From Akkermansiaceae bacterium (GTDB taxonomy: Bacteria; Verrucomicrobiota; Verrucomicrobiia; Verrucomicrobiales; Akkermansiaceae): DNA of 64,000 bases. The translations under genes were made by a program, and so were the position numbers. The DNA is taken from positions 2,713,226-2,777,225 of the forward strand of contig CP059069.1 in the NCBI GenBank assembly GCA_017798145.1, given 5' to 3'. Of the stretch, positions 7,610-32,134 are shown piece after piece; position 1 is the stretch's first letter, and every line of letters starts with the position of its first letter. Below the pieces are notes generated by a model. That model saw only the letters and a program-made list of their open reading frames with translations, had not been told where the DNA came from and ran no database searches.

Positions 7610-10600
7610 ATGGCAGAGAATCCTGAGAAGACGTTCCAGAAACATATCGCGGAGTTCCTGCTCCGCGAGCATGGCTATGGCGTCCTGACGATGGGCGAAA
7701 TCACCGACCGGGATTTCTACTTCGCGGAGGATCACCTTTGGGGTTTCCTCAAAAAGACGCAGAACGAAACGGTCGAGCGACTCGAAGAGGACTACGGCCA
7801 CGATGCCCGCGATGAGGTCTTCAAGGCTCTCCGGGAAGAGCTGGAACGCAGACCCCTGTGGTCGATCATCCGCACCGGACTGACCGTGCGGGGGCACGAC
7901 ATCAAACTCTATTTCCCCAAGCCACGGTCCAGCGGAAGCGTCGCCAACGAGCTCTACGCGGAGAATCGGCTGACCTTCATCCCCGAATTGATCATCAGCG
8001 GCGACATGCGGCCTGATTTCGCGATTTTCCTCAACGGCCTGCCCATCGTCACGGTGGAACTCAAGCACACCGCAGGTGGCCAGAACGTGAATCATGCGGT
8101 TACCCAGTATGTGAACCGTGATCACCGTGATCGGATTTTCCAGCTCCCCTTCCTGCACATTGCCGCTGATCAACAACAAGTGAAGGTGGCCACGGATCCG
8201 AGAGCGGAGAAGAACTTCCGCTGGTTCAACACCGGACTGACCAACCACGCCCAGAGCGAGAGCGAGTATCCCGTGGAGTTCCTCTACCGCGAGGTGCTCT
8301 CGAAGGATACACTGCTGGAGGCGGTTTCCTTCTACCTCGTAAACGCTCCGGCTCAGGACGCCTCCGAGGATCGCGGAGCCCGTCCGGCCTTCACGCTCTT
8401 CCCCCGCTACCACCAGAGGCGTTGCGTGGAGAAGGTGGCAACGGAGATCACCGGGCACTTCACCGAACACGGCGACATCGGGCGGAAGTTTCTCGTCAAC
8501 CACTCCGCCGGCTCGGGCAAGACGCTCACGATGTGCTGGATGGCCGACCGCCTGAACAGCCTCTATAAGCCCCGCACACTGGAGAAGGTCGTGGACATGG
8601 TATTTCTGGTCACCGACCGCAAGTCCCTGGACAAGAACATCCGCGAAGACATGGAGAAGTTTTCCCACCTGGCCGACAAGGTGGTCTTCGCCAAGCGATC
8701 CGGTCACCTGCGGCGAGCCATCGAAAACCGAGCTCAGATCATCGTCACCACGCAGCAGAAATTCCACTACGTCCTCGACAAAATTTCCAAGGACGAGGGG
8801 CTGAAGAAGCTGCGGGTCGCTTTCCTGATCGACGAGGCTCATCGTTCACAAGAAGGCCGGATGGCCCGGGAGCGGAGCCAACCGTTTCGTGATACCGAAG
8901 TGCTTCGCGTCGAAGAAAACCTAGCCAAGGTTGCGGAGACTCCGGCCGTTTACCAAGCCGGGAACGACGATGATGACGAGGAGACGACCGCCGTCGAGGC
9001 TGCGGCAACCCACTCGCCGGAAGAACCCGATGCGGAGGACGCCCAGGACAAGGAAGATCCACAGGACAAGATGGCCAAGGTCATCGCCGAACGGGATCTG
9101 AACCAACTCTACGTGGCCTTCACCGCCACACCGTCACCAGCGACGATCCAGCTCTTCGGCAAGGCCTTCGACGAATACACGGAGGCGGAGGCAATCGCGG
9201 AGGGATACATCGAAGACGTCGCCCAGAGCATCATTTCCTACAAGACCCTCTACAACCTGCATTGCCCGATCGTGCCGCTGCCGGCCGAAGAGAAGCTCTA
9301 TCCGCCTGGAATCGTCTCGAAGGCACTCAAGAACGTGGCGTTCCAAGATCCCGAGCTGATCCAATACAAGTCCGAGGTCATGCTGCGGATTTTCGAGCAG
9401 CAGGTGAAGCACCTGGTCGGCGGCAAAGCCAAAGCGATGATCGTGGCGACCTCGCGGATCGCGGGTCTCGAGTATTGGCGGATCATCACCGAAAAGCTGA
9501 AGGAGCGGGCGGGTGCGGACTACAAGGTGCTCTATGCTTTCTCGGATTTCGTGGATCCACGAACCAACAAGCTCGTCACCGAGCATGAGATCAACGGACT
9601 CAACGACGGGGAGCTGATTGAAGATCGGTTCGAGGACGACTCTTATCGAATCATGATCGTCGCCAGCAAATTCCAGACCGGCTTCGACCAACCCTTGTTG
9701 GCAGGCATGTTCCTGGACAAGGCGGTGGCTGACCGCAATGCAGTCCAGACGGTTTCGCGGCTCAATCGCTGTCACCCGGATAAGGAAGGCGTGATCGTGG
9801 TGGACTTCACAAACAACGCCAAAGCCATCCTCAAGGCATTTCACAAATACCGACACGGTTCACCCCACGAACCCGACGAGCCGGAGCCAGGCAAGTGCTT
9901 GGAGATCCTCGAAGAGATCCTCGATAAAGGCATCTTCACCCATGACGACGCGGCGGAGGTCGTCAACCTGTTGAAAAAGGGCGAGGAGGCGACTCTCGCG
10001 ACCAAGGTTCAGGACTGCAAGCTGAGGTTCGAGCAGGCGATCACGGATTTCGAGGAACGGAAGGCATTCGTTTACCTGATGGCCAAGTTCACGAAGAGTT
10101 TCCATTTCCTCAACGCCTTCTTCAGCTACGAAGAGCCGGTCCATACTTTCGCCGCGTTCTCCGACTACGTCGGACCCCAGCTGATCAAAGAAGGTTCGGT
10201 TTCGGAGCTGATGAAGCTGGTGCGGGCGACGGTGGTTCAGAGAGCAGCGGTTCTCGACAACGGCATCGTTGAAATGCCGGGCGGGCAGAAGAAGCCCAAG
10301 CCGATCCGTGGTGGGGGTGGCGGCGGAGCACCGCCCGTGAAGAAAATCTCCGTGCAGGACATGATCACGAAGATCCGTGAGCAGTTCGAGATTTCCGACG
10401 AGGAGGCACTGCACATCCGTGAAGTATCGGAGGAGAAGATTGCCGACGAGTCCGTCCAGCAGACCGTCGCCGCCCACCGTGCAGACCTGACCTTCCTGGA
10501 AAGTGTCTTCCGCGATCAGCTGAACGGCGACATTCAGGACGCCTACGCCATCCGCCAACTCTACGAGCAGCTCGCCGACCCGAAATACACCGACAAGACA

Positions 10601-18097: not shown

Positions 18098-18172
18098 GCA
18101 CGATTAGCTCAGCGGTAGAGCAACCCGTTTACACCGGGTCGGTCGGCGGTTCGATCCCGTCCTCGTGTACCA
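18098..18172 (+). tRNA. tRNA-Val (anticodon TAC)
   Basis: D arm GCTC/GAGC, anticodon stem ACCCG/CGGGT with loop TTTACAC, T arm GGCGG-TTCGATC-CCGTC and an encoded CCA end (18170-18172) give a full cloverleaf. The anticodon is TAC at the loop centre. The acceptor stem is imperfect: the first pair is G-U and position 7 (U) faces C66. The integrase gene begins 67 bases from its 5' end, so the 5' strand may have been rewritten by integration. Confidence 0.85.
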
Positions 18173-24594: not shown

Positions 24595-25410
24595 TTATCG
24601 CTTTGGGAGCGGCGGCTCGCCGGGTGTGGCCCCGGGGCGGAAAGCGGAGGAATTCCAGGGGCCGCGCGGCACCTCGTGCTCCTCGACGAATTTCCACTCG
24701 ACGACGCCCTTGCCGGACATTCCGAGGAAATCGCGGACGGCGGGGCTGACATCGAGGCCAGCGCCCTGGTTGCGGTTCTGGCGGGCGTCTTCGTTTCCGA
24801 AAACGTATTGGTAATGATCTGTCTCGAAGGGGCCGACATCCTCCCACTGGGCGTAGCAGATCCTGCCTTCGTGGTGGATGGCGAGCCAACGGCCTTTGCA
24901 TACCGAGATGCCCTCGCCCTGGTAGCGCTCCCAGAACCATGGGATCACCTGCGCGGCCTCAGGGCGGTGGCGGTAATCCTTGCCGATGTCGTTGTAGGGC
25001 AGGGCGACATAAAAGGGGTTGAGGAGCGGGGTGAAGCCCTTCGGCAGGTAGCCGTCGCGGCTGTTGGGGTCATCGTACCCGCCGAAGTTTTCCTGCCAGT
25101 TCTGATCCCAGGCGCTCTTGTTGTTCGGTGTCGGGTTGTTTTCCGTGGGCTGTTCGCCCACCCAGAACACCGTGGCGACGACATTCCTCTTCCATGCAGC
25201 CTCACTGCGGAAGCGGGCGGAAGGATCCTCCAACACCACACGGGCTGCGGCGGGCACCCCGAAGGGATCAGAGAGGCTGGAAAGGATCTCCCTGCGGTCG
25301 TTGAGCAGATCCTCATGCGCCGTTGCCAGGCGATCCGTGAGCCGCGTGGCCGAGCCAACACCCATAAGGGCGAGGCTGAAGCTGATTGCGGCTGGAACTG
25401 GATGTCTCAT
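24595..25410 (-). CDS. Secreted protein, possible double-psi beta-barrel fold
   Basis: From the ATG at 25410 (MRHPVPAAISFSLALMGVGS) it is a 271-residue exported protein. The C-terminal half reads CYAQWEDVGPFETDHYQYVFG, then GAGLDVSPAVRDFLGM and VEWKFVEE. A cluster of this kind (DVGPF with DVSPA) occurs in RlpA/3D-type double-psi beta-barrel proteins; the match is by pattern only. The N-terminal half is not recognised. The 15 upstream codons of the frame are not used. It might bind or cleave peptidoglycan or polysaccharide. It is separated from both neighbours by gaps of about 280 bases. Confidence 0.5.
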   Translation of the reverse strand: MRHPVPAAISFSLALMGVGSATRLTDRLATAHEDLLNDRREILSSLSDPFGVPAAARVVLEDPSARFRSEAAWKRNVVATVFWVGEQPTENNPTPNNKSAWDQNWQENFGGYDDPNSRDGYLPKGFTPLLNPFYVALPYNDIGKDYRHRPEAAQVIPWFWERYQGEGISVCKGRWLAIHHEGRICYAQWEDVGPFETDHYQYVFGNEDARQNRNQGAGLDVSPAVRDFLGMSGKGVVEWKFVEEHEVPRGPWNSSAFRPGATPGEPPLPKR

Positions 25411-25687
25411 TGTTTCGGTTAAAAAATGGCGCGATTGCCCTGAACTTGAAGGCATCTTAAATATTTACCTCTGCGTTTCAAGATTTTTTTGAACTATTTT
25501 TGAACGAATCCGGAGCAACCTTTTGTTTTTCCTTATCCTCTCATTTTCAATGACTTGAAAAGCATTGACGCGCTCTTTCAGGGAGGTGAAATCAAGCGAG
25601 CCAACTCATTTTCCAGAAAACTTGATACGCGAAACCGAAATTTTTTGGAAAAAATTTGAACGGATCCGGAAACCGCATTCCAAGTGC

Positions 25688-27379
25688 TCAGGCCCTGCCG
25701 ACACCGAACCTGCGGTCTATGTCCTTGCGGTTGTATTCCGTGAGCGTCGGCCGGCCGTCCGCCGCGCAGTAGGGCAGATCGCACTGGAACAGCTCATCTA
25801 ACAGGGCGGATGTCTCGCCAAGGCGCGGGATCACGCGCTGCGCGGCCCTGTTGGCCATGATGCGCGCGATCCGCTCGAAGGCGAACTTTCCCGCTGCGAT
25901 GGTTCCGTGCAGCATTTCCTCCATCATTCCGTCCAACAGCACCGCCGGATCCTCGTCCCCGAGGCAGGCGGGGAGGCTGCGGATCTGGAGGGTGTTCCCC
26001 CCGAAGGCCTCGATCTCGATCCCGGCCTCCATCAGCGCCATTTTCTCCCGCAGGAGCAAATCCAGGTCGCGGGGATCCAGCTCGATGAGAAGGGGGACGA
26101 GCAGATTCTGCGTCTCCATCCCCGCGCTGCGGCCTTTCGCAAGCCGCTCGAAGATGATGCGCTCGCGGGCCGCCTTGGGATCGAAAAGCACCAGCCCGTC
26201 GGTGCTTTCCAGGATCACGTAGCGCTCCTGCAGCATCCCGATGCTCCGGAAATCCGGGCTGTGCCGTTTTCTTGGCGCGGCTTCCACGGGTGCCATCTCC
26301 ATCTCCGGCTGGATGGGGTGGAAAACGGGACGGCTGCCCATTTCGGACGGGGTGATTTCCGCAGGCCTGGCCACGGGAGCTTTCACCGGAGCCGGGCGCA
26401 GGCACTCGGCCACCGTCGCCGCGATGAGATCCCGCACCTCGAAGGGGCGATGGAAGCGCACCTCGCGCTTGGCCGGATGCACGTTCACATCCACGAGCTG
26501 CGGCTCGATCTCAATCCAAAGCCAGGCCGCCGGATGCAACCCTTCCTGGAGATTCCCCCGGAAACCATCCGCCAATCCCTTCGTCACCGCCGCATCCTCG
26601 ATGGGCCTGCCGTTGAGGAAAACGAACTGGTGCCGTCGCCCCTTGCGGGCGTGTTTCGCAGGCAAAACGAAGCCCATCACGCTCATCCCAGCCGCCGTCC
26701 CCTTCGGCATCGCGACGAGCTCCGCGCCCATCTCATTTCCGACAAGCTGCCGCACCCGGTCCACAGTCCTCGCCACTCCGGGGAAATCGAAGACCACCCT
26801 GTCATCCTTCCGGAAGCGGAAGCGCACCCCCGGAGCCGCCAGCGCATGCAGCCGGAGCTGCTGCTCCACGTGCGCAGCTTCCGTCGTCTCCGCCCGCATG
26901 AACTTCCGCCGTGCGGGCATGTTGAAGAACAGGTTCCGCGCCTCGATCACCGTCCCCGGCGCGCCGCCCGCATCCCGCACGTCGCGCAGCTTCCCGCCAT
27001 CCACCGTGATTTCCGTGCCGGTCAGATCCTCCGGCCTCCTTGTCAGCATCCGGAACTTTGCCACGCTTGCAATGCTCGGCACCGCCTCACCGCGGAACCC
27101 CAGGGTCATCACCGTGGCGAGATCTGCGGATGTCCGCAGCTTGCTCGTCGCATGCCGTTCCAAGGAAAGCAGCGCATCCTCGCGTGCCATCCCGCAGCCA
27201 TCGTCGGAAACGCGGATCAGGTTCACGCCCCCCTTCTCTATGTCCACGGTCACCGCCTTCGCGCCGGCGTCGATGCTGTTTTCCACCAGCTCCTTGACCA
27301 CGCTCGCCGCCCGCTCCACCACCTCCCCCGCCGCCACCTGGCTGGCGAGGATGTCGGGGAGGATCTTGACAAGCGGCAT
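25688..27379 (-). CDS. mutL: DNA mismatch repair protein MutL
   Basis: From the ATG at 27379 (MPLVKILPDILASQVAAGEV) it is a 563-residue MutL. The GHKL ATPase domain is complete: VVERAASVVKELVENSIDAGA, DDGCGM and GFRGEAVPSIAS. The C-terminal dimerisation domain is present but shorter than usual. The endonuclease motif DQHA-x2-E-x4-E reads DPKA-AR-E-RIIF-E from Asp400; the ACR motif reads ANRA; and the CPHGRP motif reads CAADGRP. These changes suggest loss of the latent nicking activity. The 123 codons upstream of 27379 have no conserved content. The gene is single and followed by an AT-rich gap. Confidence 0.9.
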   Translation of the reverse strand: MPLVKILPDILASQVAAGEVVERAASVVKELVENSIDAGAKAVTVDIEKGGVNLIRVSDDGCGMAREDALLSLERHATSKLRTSADLATVMTLGFRGEAVPSIASVAKFRMLTRRPEDLTGTEITVDGGKLRDVRDAGGAPGTVIEARNLFFNMPARRKFMRAETTEAAHVEQQLRLHALAAPGVRFRFRKDDRVVFDFPGVARTVDRVRQLVGNEMGAELVAMPKGTAAGMSVMGFVLPAKHARKGRRHQFVFLNGRPIEDAAVTKGLADGFRGNLQEGLHPAAWLWIEIEPQLVDVNVHPAKREVRFHRPFEVRDLIAATVAECLRPAPVKAPVARPAEITPSEMGSRPVFHPIQPEMEMAPVEAAPRKRHSPDFRSIGMLQERYVILESTDGLVLFDPKAARERIIFERLAKGRSAGMETQNLLVPLLIELDPRDLDLLLREKMALMEAGIEIEAFGGNTLQIRSLPACLGDEDPAVLLDGMMEEMLHGTIAAGKFAFERIARIMANRAAQRVIPRLGETSALLDELFQCDLPYCAADGRPTLTEYNRKDIDRRFGVGRA

Positions 27380-28026
27380 GCATGCGATTTTGCGGAGCCA
27401 CCGGGATCGCGCAACTGTTGTTTGTGTCCGATTCCCGGTATCCGCCGTGCGCTGCCAGTGGCGCCATGGCCGCAGGGCGGCGGAATCTGCTGCTTGATCC
27501 GTAGCAATTACATCCCCCTGGGCATCCGTATCCACCCATGGAAAATTAAATATGGAAAACGTTGACATGATATCCATGATTCTGTTTCCTCCCGCCCGCA
27601 ACCAGCCGATCCGATGAAACTCCAATCCATAACAACGACATCCGCCGCCCGCCGCCCATGGCTGGATCGCGGGTTGTTTGGCAGAAACGGGCTTCACGCG
27701 TCCTGTCACGGGCTTCTCCCGATGATTTCGAAAAGCGAAACCCCGCAAAGCCGCGGAAGCAGGTTATGGCACTTGTGTGTCTAGGAACTCCATAGAACAA
27801 AGGATCCTCCGCCCTGCTTCCCCACCGGAACAGGGCTTTTTTATTGCCCGAATTTTCAGAACCACCAAACCGATCTCCCAGAATGCCCATCAAGCCGCCG
27901 GCCATGCACCGGCTCACGCGAATCCCTGACTGAAGATCCCGCCCTTCCCGGCGGGAAGCGCCTTCCATAACATATCATGCCCGGAAAAACTTATCTTCGG
28001 GTCATGGCACCACTGTATCCATAAAT
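27380..28026. other. Non-coding stretch between mutL and the HNH gene
   Basis: These 650 bases contain no convincing protein gene. A plus-strand terminator at 27811-27842 has no coding sequence upstream, so a small RNA may end there. A TTGACA at 27563 is possible as a -35 box but no good -10 box follows. The promoter of the HNH gene should be in the last 150 bases. Confidence 0.4.
27811..27842 (+). terminator. Rho-independent terminator
   Basis: GCCCTG and CAGGGC form a six-pair stem, then a run of T (TTTTTT). It is upstream of the HNH gene and no coding sequence precedes it, so the transcript it ends is unexplained. Confidence 0.65.
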
Positions 28027-28608
28027 ATGACTTCCCAAGCTCTCCATCAGAAAACCGTCCTTGTCCTGAACCGGCACTGGCTGCCCGTTTCCGCGGTATC
28101 ACCTGCGGACGCGTTCTGCCACATGGTTGCGGGAACGGCCGACGGCCTTTTCATCTCCGCGGATTCCATGCTCACCCTTGCGTGGGACGCCTGGAGGAAA
28201 CTGGCGGTCGGCGATTCCGGCTCCATCGGCACCAAGGAAGGCCGCGTCCGGATCCCCACGGTGATCGTTCTGTCCCGCTTCGGCGGTCTGCCGGTCTGCA
28301 GGCCATCCTTCGGTTTCCGCGCTCTCTGGGAACGGGACGGCGGGCGCTGCCAATACAGCGGCCGCAAGCTCGCGGTGCACGAGGCGGACATCGACCACAT
28401 CCTGCCGCGCTCGCGGGGCGGGCGGGACGCATGGGATAACTGCGTGATTTCCGACAGGAACATCAACCGCCGGAAAGGGGCGCGGACGCCCGAGGAAGCG
28501 CGGCTCACCCTGATACGCAAGCCGAGCGTCCCCCGTGCGGTGCCGGTGACCCACACCATCGAAAACACCTGCAACATCAACGACTGGAACCACTTCATCA
28601 TGAAATAG
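28027..28608 (+). CDS. HNH endonuclease family protein
   Basis: A 193-residue protein. The C-terminal half holds an HNH motif: CQYSGRKL, then ADIDHILPRSRGGRDAWDN and CVISDRNINRRKG, with the metal-binding His and Asn. Only one CxxC-like pair is incomplete (C-Q-Y-S), so the zinc knuckle may be lacking. The N-terminal half resembles the DUF-type domain found before HNH in similar chromosomal genes (LVLNRHWLPVSAVSPADAF). The gene starts about 190 bases after a terminator and ends 79 bases before a tRNA-Ile-like RNA. Its neighbours downstream are an SPFH protein and RtcB. It probably cuts DNA or RNA but the substrate is unknown. Confidence 0.78.
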   Translation: MTSQALHQKTVLVLNRHWLPVSAVSPADAFCHMVAGTADGLFISADSMLTLAWDAWRKLAVGDSGSIGTKEGRVRIPTVIVLSRFGGLPVCRPSFGFRALWERDGGRCQYSGRKLAVHEADIDHILPRSRGGRDAWDNCVISDRNINRRKGARTPEEARLTLIRKPSVPRAVPVTHTIENTCNINDWNHFIMK

Positions 28609-28687
28609 ATCACGATCCACCATGCCGGTAAACGGCCCGAAGGGGAGATTCCCCGGAGGGTTCCGTGCAGTTCCCGGCGGATCGTAA

Positions 28688-28759
28688 CAATGGATAGCTC
28701 ATTGGTAGAGCCCTTGCCTGATAAGCAAGTTGTAGCGGGTTCGAATCCCGCTCCACGAA
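28688..28759 (+). tRNA. tRNA-Ile-like RNA (anticodon GAT) with a failed acceptor stem
   Basis: The D arm (GCTC-ATTGGTA-GAGC), anticodon arm (CTTGC-CTGATAA-GCAAG) and T arm (GCGGG-TTCGAAT-CCCGC) are all perfect and the anticodon would be GAT. The acceptor stem, however, has only four pairs (TGGA/TCCA next to the body); positions 1-3 do not pair with 70-72 and no CCA follows. A further GCGG/CCGC pairing is possible outside, so the element may be a tRNA-like domain of a larger RNA, or a decayed tRNA. It lies 180 bases upstream of an SPFH gene that precedes rtcB. Confidence 0.55.
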
Positions 28760-28940
28760 AAACCGCTCCCGCCCCGGCCCTTCGATGGGAAGGGGACGAA
28801 AGGCCATGCGGCGCCCGCAAAAACCGTTTCCCGCCACCGTGCGGGATCCGAAAAGCGGAACGCCCCGCCCGGAGTCCCCGGGGCGGGAGTCGGTTCATCC
28901 CGATTTCCGGGAAAACAACAAACAAAAGAAGAAAACGAAA

Positions 28941-29636
28941 ATGAAATACATGCACACCATCACCGTCCGCGAAACCCAGGCCGCCTTGCTTTACCGCAAC
29001 GGCGTCTTCGAGCGCACCCTCGCGCCCGGCAAGCAGCGGCTCTTCGGCTTCGGATACGAGGTGCGGATCCACGACAAGCGTTGGAAGGAAATGCAGATCC
29101 AGGGACAGGAGTTCATGACCGCCGACAAGGCGCAGCTCCGCGCCTCCGCCTTCGTGAAATACCGGATCGCAGATGCGCTACTCTTCGAAAGCGTTTCCGA
29201 CAACCCCGCCTACGCGATCTACACCGCCGCGCAGCTCGCGCTGCGGGATGCGATCGGTGCGCTCGGCGTCGAGGACGCGCTTGACCGTGGCAAGGATCTC
29301 TCGCCCGACCTCACCGCGAAAGTCGTCGCCGAAGCCGCCGCGCTCGGTGTCGAAGTCGGCAAGGTCGCGGTGAAAGACATGGGTGTCGGCGGTGATCTGA
29401 AGAAGGTCTTCGCCGATGTCCTCTCCGCGCGGAGCCAATCGCTCGTGACCCTTGAAAAGGCACGGGCCGAGGCCGCCGCGATCCGCACCTTGTCGAACGC
29501 CGCCCGGGTCTTCGAGACCAACCCCGCCCTGCTCAAGCTCAAGTTCCTCCAGGCGCTTGAGAAAAGCGAAGGCGGCTTCGCCCAACCTTACATGCTCGGC
29601 AACGCCGGCAACTGGTTGGATTTCCTGAAAACCTAA
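28941..29636 (+). CDS. SPFH/band-7 (slipin-like) protein
   Basis: A 231-residue protein starting MKYMHTITVRETQAALLYRNG at ATG 28941; the frame is open from 28785 but the upstream codons lack family features. The SPFH domain is visible as the strand pattern LYRNGVFERTLAPGKQRLFGFGYEVRIHDKRWKEM and the later YRIADALLFESVSDNPA and DLKKVFADVLSARSQSLVTLEKARAEAAAIR helix, typical of slipins and prohibitins. The usual N-terminal membrane hairpin is absent, so it may be cytoplasmic or peripheral. rtcB follows, after an inverted repeat. The pairing of an SPFH protein with RtcB and a tRNA-like RNA suggests a role in RNA repair or stress response. Confidence 0.82.
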   Translation: MKYMHTITVRETQAALLYRNGVFERTLAPGKQRLFGFGYEVRIHDKRWKEMQIQGQEFMTADKAQLRASAFVKYRIADALLFESVSDNPAYAIYTAAQLALRDAIGALGVEDALDRGKDLSPDLTAKVVAEAAALGVEVGKVAVKDMGVGGDLKKVFADVLSARSQSLVTLEKARAEAAAIRTLSNAARVFETNPALLKLKFLQALEKSEGGFAQPYMLGNAGNWLDFLKT

Positions 29637-29646
29637 CAACAAATCC

Positions 29647-29728
29647 GAACCACGGATGGACGCAAATGCACACGGATTGAAGAATCCATAGCACTAGATC
29701 CGTGTTTATCCGTGTCCATCCGTGGTTC
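29647..29728. repeat. Long inverted repeat between the SPFH gene and rtcB
   Basis: GAACCACGGATGGAC at 29647-29661 pairs with GTCCATCCGTGGTTC at 29714-29728, with a second inner pair of 8 bases (ACACGGAT at 29670, ATCCGTGT at 29698). The arms carry tandem ATCCGTG units. Similar GGATGGACACGGAT-type palindromes occur as dispersed repeats in other bacterial genomes, so it may be a REP-like element. No second copy was found in this window. Confidence 0.7.
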
Positions 29729-29745
29729 CTCCATTTTCCCGCTTT

Positions 29746-31275
29746 ATGAAACTTCTCACCAACCAAGACCTGATCGACGCCGGATACGAGCCGGGGCCGA
29801 TCTTCAAACAGCTCCACGCCTGCATAGCCGGCTACGAGGCGAAGGGCATCACCGATCCGAAATACGCGATGAAACTGCTCAAGCGCGATTGCGGGAAGCC
29901 GGTTGCGAAACTGAAGAGGCTTGCGGAACCCATCCCGTTTTCCGAAGCGATCTCTCCCGCCAACGCGGAGGAGGAACGCAACGTGGAGAGCGTGCGCAAA
30001 CAGATGCGCGGCCTGCTGCGCACACCCGTCATCCATGCCGGGGTGATCCTGCCCGACGCGTGCCCCGTGGCTCCTCAGGAGGCGGTGATCCCGGTCGGCG
30101 CGGCGGTGGTCGCGGAGAACGCGATCATCCCCTCCGCCCACTCGGCGGACATCTGCTGCTCCATGTGGGCGACGTTCTACGAGAAACGTAGTAGCCTTGC
30201 CTCCGAGCTCGACGACCTGGTTTCCGTGACGAACTTCGGCCCCATTCCCCGCGCCCATGCGGATGCGGTGGAGGACTCGGTGACAGCCGAGGATGTTTGG
30301 GAAAACCCTTTCCTGAAAGGGCTGGAAAACCGCGCGCGGATGCACATGGCGGACCAAGGCGATGGCAACCACTTCGCCTACATCGGCGAGATGGCGGTCA
30401 GCCCCGAGTTTCTGGCCGTGCTGCGCCTGACTGGGCACGCGGATCTCGCGGAAAGCCTCGCGGCCAGCGCCGGGAAAACCCTGCGCGTGCTGGTCACGCA
30501 CCACGGTTCGCGTAGCATCGGCGCACACCTTTACAAGCGCGGCCAGATTGCGGCGGAAAAGCACACGGCGAAGGTGGCGGAAGGGATTCCGAAAGCCTCG
30601 GCGTGGCTGGATGCGAACTCGGATACCGGCAAGGACTACTGGCACGCCCTGCAATACATCTCGCGATGGACGAAAGCGAACCACCGGGCGATCCACCGCC
30701 GTTTCCTCGAAAAGATAGCCGGAAGTGGAATCGCGGAGCTGGGCAACGAGCACAACTTCGTCTGGAAACGCGGCGACCATTTCCTCCACGGAAAAGGTGC
30801 GACCCCCGCGTGGAAGGACGATGCGGGCCGCCCGAAGCTTGGATTGATCCCGCTCAACATGGCCGAACCGATCCTGCTGGTGCTCGGTGCCGACAAGGAA
30901 GAATTCCTGTCCTTCGCTCCCCACGGGGCAGGGAGGAACCTTTCGAGGACGGCACTGATGCGGAAATTCCCGGAGGAAAGAGACCGCGAGCGCCAGCTTG
31001 TGGAATCGATCGAAGGGATCGACGTCCGTTGGTTCTCCGGAGTGGCGGATCTGAGTGAAACCCCCGTCGCCTACAAAAACGCGGCGGAGGTGAAGCGGCA
31101 GATCGCGGATTTCGGGCTGGCGGAAGTCATCGCGGAAATCCGGCCTCTCGGTTGCATCATGGCGGGCCACATCGACCAGCCGTGGCGCTCCCGGAAGGAC
31201 GTGCTTTCGCCGAAACAACTCCGCCAGATCGAGCACCGCGCTGAGCGGCGGAAGGTGAGGCAGGAACTGGACTGA
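29746..31275 (+). CDS. rtcB: RNA ligase RtcB
   Basis: A 509-residue RtcB, the GTP/Mn2+-dependent ligase that joins RNA ends bearing 2',3'-cyclic phosphate or 3'-phosphate to 5'-OH. From ATG 29746 (MKLLTNQDLIDAGYEPGPIF) the protein shows the metal site SADICCSM (Asp135, Cys137/138), GDGNHFAYIGE, VTHHGSRS, the HGKGAT segment and APHGAGRNLSR, which holds the His that is guanylylated in characterised RtcB. The length is close to the bacterial norm of about 400-490 with an added N-terminal 60 residues. No archease or RtcA gene lies nearby. It is preceded by an SPFH gene and, further up, by a tRNA-like RNA. Confidence 0.94.
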   Translation: MKLLTNQDLIDAGYEPGPIFKQLHACIAGYEAKGITDPKYAMKLLKRDCGKPVAKLKRLAEPIPFSEAISPANAEEERNVESVRKQMRGLLRTPVIHAGVILPDACPVAPQEAVIPVGAAVVAENAIIPSAHSADICCSMWATFYEKRSSLASELDDLVSVTNFGPIPRAHADAVEDSVTAEDVWENPFLKGLENRARMHMADQGDGNHFAYIGEMAVSPEFLAVLRLTGHADLAESLAASAGKTLRVLVTHHGSRSIGAHLYKRGQIAAEKHTAKVAEGIPKASAWLDANSDTGKDYWHALQYISRWTKANHRAIHRRFLEKIAGSGIAELGNEHNFVWKRGDHFLHGKGATPAWKDDAGRPKLGLIPLNMAEPILLVLGADKEEFLSFAPHGAGRNLSRTALMRKFPEERDRERQLVESIEGIDVRWFSGVADLSETPVAYKNAAEVKRQIADFGLAEVIAEIRPLGCIMAGHIDQPWRSRKDVLSPKQLRQIEHRAERRKVRQELD

Positions 31276-31281
31276 AAACAG

Positions 31282-31310
31282 GGGGCGCGGAATGAAGTCC
31301 GCGCTCCTTT
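31282..31310 (+). terminator. Rho-independent terminator after rtcB
   Basis: A 10-pair stem (GGGGCGCGGA with TCCGCGCTCC, one G-U) closes a loop of ATGAAG and is followed by TTTG. It starts six bases after the rtcB stop and ends the SPFH-RtcB transcript. Confidence 0.65.
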
Positions 31311-31311
31311 G

Positions 31312-31438
31312 CTATTTCGTCCGCTTGGAGAAGCGCTGGTTGTAGTCGTAGTCCCCGCCCTTCATGTTTTGCCCTTCACCCAGTTTTCCGGGAGTTGGTC
31401 GAGGAGATCGAGGCGGCGGAGGGTGTTGAGGAGGTTCA
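31312..31438 (-). pseudogene. Fragment of a sulfatase 3' end
   Basis: The minus strand encodes LLNTLRRLDLLDQLPENW then VKGK, and after a one-base deletion MKGGDYDYNQRFSKRTK and a TAG at 31312-31314. This is almost the same as the C-terminus of the sulfatase at 57064-58866 (LLNTLRRLDLLDQLPENWAKGKN plus MKGGDYDYIQRFSKRTKGD). The reading frame is broken at GGCAAAACATG, where the intact gene has GGCAAGAACATG. The fragment begins at the end of the secreted-protein gene at 31436. It is the remnant of a second sulfatase copy. Confidence 0.8.
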
Positions 31439-32134
31439 GCGGGTGGCGTCGGGCTTTGAATCGACCTCTGAGCGAAAATCGGGAAAACCAAAGATGCGGG
31501 GGATCGGGGAGCCGTCGGGGCTGATGACGAAAAACACGCTCCGGCTGCGGGGGTCGTGGGTCCAGCTGGTTTCGCAGAGCGATTCGAGGCGCGTTTTGTC
31601 GGGGGGCTGGAAGTGGATGTTGACCCGGTAGTCTTCCATACCGGTGGCGGGCGCGTCGAGGATCAGGCGGGATTGCGGATCGAGGAGGAGTTTCCGCGAC
31701 CCGAGGAGGCCGCCGATCCTGTTGTCGGTGAGGTTGTACCAAAGCATCTGCCCGCGCTTGAAATTTGCCGCATCGGCGTTGATGACCTGCATCGCGACGG
31801 GCGCGATTTTGTTTGCGGGATCGCTGGAAACGATGAGGTAGAAATCCGTGACGGACTCCGCGAGGGTGGCCTTGGGCGCATCCGCCGGGATGGCGCCGTC
31901 CGGGGCGGGCGGAGAAGGCAGCAGGGCGAGGGCGAGGGCACCGGGGCGGAGCGGATAGACCTGGGAGAAATTCATGCGCGGCAGCTCGACCTCCTGCGAC
32001 TTCAAGCCATCGAACAGATGGAGGCTCTGCGGGGCGTCACCCGATGCGTTGAGGAAAAGGATCCGGCAGGTGCGGGAGGATTTTTCCGCAGCGTGGGCGG
32101 CGAGGGAGAGAATAAGGAAGATGAGGACACGCAT
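31436..32134 (-). CDS. Secreted protein of unknown function
   Basis: A 232-residue protein with a signal peptide (MRVLIFLILSLAAHAAE, cleavage near residue 16). The mature part has alternating strands (LLFLNASGDAPQSLHLFDG) and no recognised domain. It lies 20 bases after the Verru_Chthon protein A gene and may be in its transcript. The last codons (SKPDATR, then stop) run directly into the sulfatase fragment, and the C-terminus could be altered by that junction. It may be a small partner of the surface apparatus, but this is inference. Confidence 0.55.
   Translation of the reverse strand: MRVLIFLILSLAAHAAEKSSRTCRILFLNASGDAPQSLHLFDGLKSQEVELPRMNFSQVYPLRPGALALALLPSPPAPDGAIPADAPKATLAESVTDFYLIVSSDPANKIAPVAMQVINADAANFKRGQMLWYNLTDNRIGGLLGSRKLLLDPQSRLILDAPATGMEDYRVNIHFQPPDKTRLESLCETSWTHDPRSRSVFFVISPDGSPIPRIFGFPDFRSEVDSKPDATR

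Follow-up and report, generated by a model that had tools for sequence, protein, structure and literature searches.

In a 64,000-nucleotide stretch of the genome of an Akkermansiaceae bacterium (assembly GCA_017798145.1, contig CP059069.1, positions 2,713,226 to 2,777,225), hereafter called the window, four elements stand in one row on the plus strand: a gene for an HNH nuclease, a tRNA-like RNA with a truncated acceptor stem, a gene for an SPFH/Band-7 protein and a gene for an RtcB-type RNA ligase. They were located from open reading frames, ARAGORN and Pfam, and each lies where an earlier note on this DNA had placed it. With a probability of about 0.62, the RNA (28688-28759) is a trans-acting, non-decoding tRNA mimic that would work with the adjacent SPFH protein and, together with RtcB and here also with the HNH nuclease, would belong to a repair module for tRNA damage or translation stress. 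The comparison of loci shows the SPFH protein, and not RtcB, to be the steady partner of this RNA, the ligase gene (29746-31275) being present in the same locus as the RNA and the SPFH gene.

The partnership was observed in a scan of species genomes with an SPFH alignment, of which the best 80 of 546 confirmed loci were used; all counts out of 80 given below rest on these. The 80 loci span Proteobacteria, Bacteroidota, Planctomycetota, Acidobacteriota, Clostridia, one cyanobacterium and others. A tRNA-type T arm, sought from -1000 to +200 of the SPFH frame, was found upstream of SPFH and on the same strand in 75 of them, and three of the five loci without it have less than 500 nucleotides upstream of SPFH. 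When the 16 Mesorhizobium-type loci (15 named Mesorhizobium) were set aside, the T arm preceded SPFH in 59 of 64 loci. Its density near SPFH is 1.57 per kb against 0.127 per kb in the rest of the loci, a 12-fold difference from a background that includes tRNA arrays. By comparison, RtcB lies within 5 kb of SPFH in 21 loci and HNH in 5, and RtcB was therefore dropped as the partner of the RNA. The earlier note had proposed a tRNA mimic in an RNA-repair setting: the mimic with a defective acceptor stood, whereas the companion gene that recurs is SPFH rather than rtcB. The linkage of rtcB with the RNA, which had been named beforehand as a point open to refutation, is broken in relatives, RtcB being absent within 5 kb in 59 of the 80 loci, some of them on short contigs.

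The linkage does not extend to slipins at large. Among 29 cyanobacterial SPFH loci scored as a control, the T arm preceded SPFH in 5 of the 8 close-type loci and in none of 21 ordinary slipins (22 loci, one of which gave no alignment), and when close-type loci were fetched again as 5.5-kb stretches, the RNA was found in 7 of 7. In an earlier SPFH set, the T arm was upstream in 20 of the 23 loci scored; no tRNA or T-loop motif was seen in the weaker SPFH loci L146-L150, which were left out of the 23. At the level of gene neighbourhoods, the linkage of the RNA is shown to be specific to one SPFH subfamily and to span phyla. Starting from the ligase, a match to RtcB was present in 63 of 145 related genomes, and 33 of 40 RtcB loci were scanned for T arms. 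In 6 of these 33, the window included, HNH, SPFH or RtcB is immediately preceded by the cloverleaf of a tRNA or tRNA-like RNA, and both scanned loci that have SPFH (the window and L073) are among the six. An HNH homolog adjoins window-type RtcB in 12 of the 40 loci, again counting the window, all 12 within the same family. A search of 50,697 phage records for the window-type SPFH gave no match at E 1e-3. As side observations, one Planctomycetota metagenome-assembled genome (L198) has 34 ARAGORN tRNA calls in 10.6 kb around SPFH, and another locus (L133) has three similar T-arm motifs at 2775, 2944 and 3188 on the minus strand, downstream of SPFH and with no obvious D arm.

The window RNA lies in the 332-nucleotide gap between the HNH gene (28027-28608) and the SPFH gene (28941-29636). 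It was labelled tRNA-Ile(GAT) by ARAGORN and is matched by the tRNA model of Rfam. Its D arm (28697-28711; stem 28697-28700 with 28708-28711), anticodon arm (28713-28729; stem 28713-28717 with 28725-28729; loop CTGATAA at 28718-28724, with GAT at 28720-28722) and T arm (28735-28751; stem 28735-28739 with 28747-28751; loop TTCGAAT) have perfect stems of 4, 5 and 5 pairs. As the earlier note had described, the acceptor is the exception: the cloverleaf parse leaves a remnant of 4 contiguous pairs, TGGA at 28691-28694 with TCCA at 28752-28755, the next three positions cannot pair and no CCA is encoded. The Rfam tRNA model gave 54.2 bits and covered positions 4-67 of 71 only, and the genome has 43 tRNA matches above the cut-off, all of which span 1-71 except the window RNA. 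Under nearly the same cloverleaf parse, with a wider variable loop allowed, the 30 best-scoring of the 43 have 7 (29) or 6 (1) acceptor pairs.

A functional tRNA-Ile(GAU) would be expected to have a 7-pair, CCA-ready acceptor and a conserved anticodon; the window RNA has 4 pairs, and the GAT of the window is replaced by GAA or AGA in relatives. A normal tRNA-Ile(GAT) with full acceptor and CCA is present beside a tRNA-Ala elsewhere in the genome, where a second full-length copy of the window RNA was not found. Judged by its structure, the window RNA is no spare tRNA-Ile, and the label 'Ile' carries no weight because the anticodons of its relatives differ. Two ways of lengthening the acceptor were considered: a bulged 7-pair stem (TCG/CGA) was rejected as it fails in the nearest relative, and the outer GCGG/CCGC stem proposed earlier is not conserved in that relative (L159). 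A suggested likeness to Y RNAs found no support either, since the 8 Rfam matches up to E 10 include no Y RNA family, and tRNA alone passes its cut-off. Folded without constraints, the stretch 28670-28775 reaches its energy minimum in a shape other than a cloverleaf, with an unremarkable z of -1.6. Elsewhere in the window, a low-scoring tRNA-Val(TAC) was noted at 18098-18172 (55.4 bits), 20 kb from a tRNA of the same anticodon at G000:C1:2710847 (67.8 bits).

Eight loci of the family have an SPFH match more than 40% identical: the window, L333, L330, L331, L332, L131, L132 and L073, L333 being on the same contig as L159, an Akkermansiaceae metagenome-assembled genome. The order HNH, SPFH, RtcB is kept in 7 of the 8, namely the unbroken ones; 7 of the 8, and 6 of the 7 unbroken, have the tRNA-like RNA in the gap between HNH and SPFH. 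The RNA of L159 has the same stems as that of the window, with GAA for GAT and one change in the T loop. Read by eye in 7-nucleotide loops, the GAT anticodon of the window is replaced by GAA in L159, L330, L332, L131 and L132 and by AGA in L073, the script having given 5-nucleotide loops for L131 and L132. Alongside the tRNA-like RNA, a full-length tRNA-His is found upstream of HNH in L131, L330 and L332, as it is in the HNH-RtcB loci L063, L065 and L068, where no SPFH was found. In all six, this tRNA-His(GTG) stands directly before HNH, and in L066 before RtcB. In 4 of 5 genomes, a BLAST search with one tRNA-His(GTG) gave no further close copy, but the search is insensitive, as it missed a known copy in the fifth, G027. 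A broken RtcB copy next to HNH was also noted in L064 (5927-6881), near an intact RtcB at 8519-10036.

Across 103 loci, 175 T arms were collected, 137 of them with a plausible cloverleaf. Acceptor pairs were counted in the 70 of 103 loci whose cloverleaf has 4 D pairs, some of these parses being poor, and the RNA nearest SPFH has at most 4 contiguous acceptor pairs in 46 of the 70 (30 of 54 without Mesorhizobium). Tandem pairs of tRNA-like RNAs are frequent. In Mesorhizobium, the first RNA has an acceptor stem and in most cases an encoded CCA, and its anticodon loop usually measures 5-6 nucleotides; the second abuts it directly, starts with GGATAGCTC and has 3 acceptor pairs. The same tandem arrangement was observed in Photobacterium, whose second RNA closely resembles that of the window, with nearly identical D and T arms.

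The Mesorhizobium set comprised 87 genomes, 3 of which were left out for partial or split SPFH matches, and 83 of the 84 remaining loci could be parsed (L239-L268, L276-L329). The second RNA has the same D, T and anticodon stems throughout these 83 loci (anticodon stem, 83 of 83), while 24 different anticodon loops were counted, which require at least 38 changes when placed on the SPFH tree. From fixed stems combined with 24 loops it follows that a fixed decoding role is excluded and that the tRNA-like shape of the body is maintained. Within this RNA, anticodon positions 34 and 35 change fastest, with 30-31 and 25 parsimony changes; columns in the D loop, the T loop and the flanks are nearly as fast, reaching 22-28 changes, which rules out a claim of positive selection on the anticodon. 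The variation of the Mesorhizobium anticodon loop shows a lack of conservation and is not in itself evidence of selection for new anticodons.

The wider family is associated with two forms of stress control. In Citrobacter (L151), rtcR is the divergent neighbour of an RNA-slipin pair. The slipin is followed by a gene annotated as a nucleotidyltransferase, which corresponds in E. coli to RlaP, an 'RNA repair pathway' nucleotidyltransferase. The RlaP family has been described with RNA-repair systems (PMC7824862, PMC6514570). Both in E. coli (L152:5240-7493) and in this Citrobacter locus, a T-arm RNA, the slipin and RlaP form an operon with a sigma54-like promoter. Other loci carry RtcA and RtcB (L187) or RtcB (L153). 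Of 103 loci, 13 have a sigma54-like site upstream of the first T arm; on the opposite strand, such sites were counted in 3 of the 103. Four of the 13 loci (L134, L136, L138, L142) belong to the phylum of the window. A sigma54 promoter at the window locus itself was rejected, there being no match nearby. In Salmonella, an RtcR operon responds to damaged tRNAs (PMC7790460).

The second control is that of TrcR. In 4 of 7 cyanobacterial loci, the RNA and SPFH are separated by a stretch containing TGTAGTAT, the site printed for the Anabaena trn operon (PMC10272220). The 8-mer occurs 8 times in 38.5 kb against 1.65 expected, the maximum of 40 simulations being 5, and 4 of the 8 sites fall in one duplicated stretch of L372; among ordinary slipin loci, it was present in 2 of 22. 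HNH homologs 27.5-30.5% identical to that of the window precede tRNA arrays on both Nostoc plasmids inspected, and on both, TrcR-type sites were seen before the HNH homolog and before the array of 20-21 ARAGORN calls. Without TrcR, Anabaena shows a 77-fold rise of rtcB, a 42-fold rise of a slipin and rises of 17- and 7-fold for two HNH genes, and the trn array is turned on; under chloramphenicol stress, trn, rtcB, the slipin and one HNH gene go up as well (PMC10272220). By gene content, the four parts of the window appear to match this known translation-stress regulon. Taken together, two unrelated stress controls on relatives of the module, sigma54/RtcR and TrcR, point to tRNA damage or blocked translation as its probable setting.

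At the window locus, the RtcB gene encodes 509 amino acids with a long N-terminal part (Pfam RtcB, E 1.4e-32). Aligned with three other RtcBs, it keeps D135, C138, N208, H209, H252, H336 and H393, and its HGAGR motif aligns with a solved RtcB structure; the kept positions include the catalytic Cys, Asp and His and the guanylylated His of RtcB ligases. The SPFH protein (231 amino acids; Pfam Band_7, E 7.3e-21) belongs to a family whose profile matches stomatin structures. It has no N-terminal membrane segment, the hydropathy maximum of its first 80 residues being 0.03, which sets it apart from membrane slipins and stomatins, and 21 of 23 family members, with hydropathy below 1.7, show no strong membrane segment. 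In the 193-residue HNH protein (Pfam HNH_4, E 1.5e-11, 44.5 bits), no other domain was recognised, and the nearest PDB matches of its HNH domain are the HNH domains of IscB and Cas9-like proteins.

How the RNA could act may be outlined as follows. It would bind the SPFH protein, whose lack of a membrane anchor could allow it to form a soluble scaffold, and would display a tRNA body and an anticodon hairpin recognised by tRNA-cutting enzymes or by receptors of cut tRNA. The RNA-SPFH complex may then hold broken RNAs or hand them to RtcB, and elsewhere to RtcA-RtcB or RlaP. As for its specific role, a decoy or sensor for anticodon nucleases is tentatively ranked first, an RNA scaffold on which cut tRNAs dock comes a close second, and any other role comes last. 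A fuller version of the first, in which a fixed tRNA body with an exchangeable anticodon loop attracts the anticodon nucleases of each lineage and the cutting of this bait is sensed on the soluble SPFH scaffold or repaired by RtcB or RlaP, is speculative and rather unlikely as a whole; in the window, HNH, SPFH and RtcB would then make up a compact module with one such bait, gathering at one locus a translation-stress regulon that is scattered in cyanobacteria.

Several observations weigh against a stress-repair module built around a tRNA mimic. Besides the poor parses among the acceptor counts and the frequent lack of a nearby RtcB mentioned above, 24 of the 70 RNAs nearest SPFH have 5-7 contiguous acceptor pairs, and the RNAs of E. 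coli and Citrobacter, whose T stem has 4 pairs, gave no convincing cloverleaf. The E. coli stretch shows no annotated rtcR, and the sigma54 scan of the window gave 2 matches against 4.5 expected, neither near the locus. The stress link of the window locus rests on homology, and the assignment of the Anabaena slipin alr0740 to the RNA-linked type is itself inferred. In the closest relative (L333/L159, 72% identical), SPFH is broken, the match ending at residue 114 and being followed by unrelated sequence (L333:4667-5100), no RtcB lies within about 5 kb, HNH and RNA are intact, and no match to the window RtcB was found in the genome (G021, 90% complete). Lastly, L331 has HNH, SPFH and RtcB, yet no T arm; its gap (L331:4250-4560) keeps an anticodon-like hairpin with a GAA loop.

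Among other explanations, the best placed is that of a cis-acting leader, in which a tRNA-like structure in the SPFH-RtcB mRNA would control expression by processing or cleavage. The position of the RNA speaks for it, on the same strand and upstream of SPFH in the 75 loci and, in the window, within the gap between HNH and SPFH. In 4 of the 7 cyanobacterial loci, however, the TrcR-type promoter element between the RNA and SPFH means that an mRNA starting there would be without the RNA, which argues for action in trans, and the tandem RNAs and gaps of several hundred nucleotides of many loci suit a separate RNA better; a leader is therefore held to be unlikely. Slightly less probable still is a spare or replacement tRNA that refills a pool depleted by toxins, the window copy being one of them and possibly decaying. 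Translation inhibitors do switch on the trn array of Anabaena (PMC10272220), arrays of at least three ARAGORN calls lie near SPFH in 16 of the 80 loci, full-length tRNA-His precedes HNH or RtcB in relatives, and the broken locus of the closest relative fits decay. Nevertheless, the genome has a normal counterpart of the window RNA, which itself is short of CCA and of three acceptor pairs, the SPFH-adjacent RNA is mostly acceptor-poor, and in Mesorhizobium the anticodon varies on fixed stems.

A chance neighbour, that is, an ordinary tRNA relic or an integration site next to unrelated genes, is very improbable: tRNA genes are common integration sites and ARAGORN reports a tRNA-Ile, but the T arm in 75 of 80 loci against none of 21 ordinary slipins and its 12-fold density contradict this, as do the intact arms and the near identity of the D and T arms in the window and Photobacterium. 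Least probable of all is a guide that would pair for the HNH nuclease in the manner of IscB or Cas9, suggested by the nearest PDB domains and contradicted by a 193-residue protein with HNH as sole recognised domain, by HNH lying within 5 kb in 5 of 80 RNA-SPFH loci and by the Nostoc HNH homologs that adjoin tRNA arrays.

The reading as a trans-acting tRNA mimic has precedents. Burroughs and Aravind (2016, NAR 44:8525) reportedly named, among RNA-repair systems, SPFH/Band-7 modules that come with a cognate tRNA-like molecule of a novel kind. The SPFH-linked tRNA-like RNA is therefore a kind already known, and the window has both the SPFH and the tRNA-like RNA, plus RtcB. The Salmonella Ro60/Rsr-Y RNA-RtcBA operons are alike in joining a tRNA-mimicking RNA and a scaffold protein to repair enzymes, under RtcR control (PMC7790460); the window has SPFH in place of Ro60 and no match to a Y RNA family, and no TROVE domain was seen by Pfam in the six open reading frames of 24595-32134. 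In Anabaena, tRNA genes, HNH, slipin and RtcB likewise respond jointly to translation stress, but there the parts are dispersed over the genome, whereas the window has one locus with a single acceptor-poor RNA (PMC10272220). In Pseudomonas aeruginosa, the gene of the SPFH protein PaFlo8 lies inside an rtcA-rtcB-rtcR locus, and a search of the main text of that paper for 'tRNA' found no occurrence (PMC13086221). The HNH-linked acceptor-poor variant and the link to a stress regulon look new: a literature search that covered subscription journals thinly returned no account of acceptor-poor tandem RNAs, of a changing anticodon, of an HNH-SPFH-RtcB single locus or of a convergence of TrcR and RtcR.

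These findings bear on two questions, namely what the substrates of bacterial RtcB are and why SPFH proteins and tRNA mimics occur in RNA-repair loci. The rule that is offered is that the RNA accompanies one SPFH subfamily, mostly without a membrane anchor, and the combination of fixed stems with a changing anticodon loop is a clue to the purpose of the RNA. Moreover, a T-arm RNA/slipin/RlaP relative of the module was matched in 1624 of 5426 complete E. coli genomes (about 30%), and harmless laboratory strains therefore offer a way to study it.

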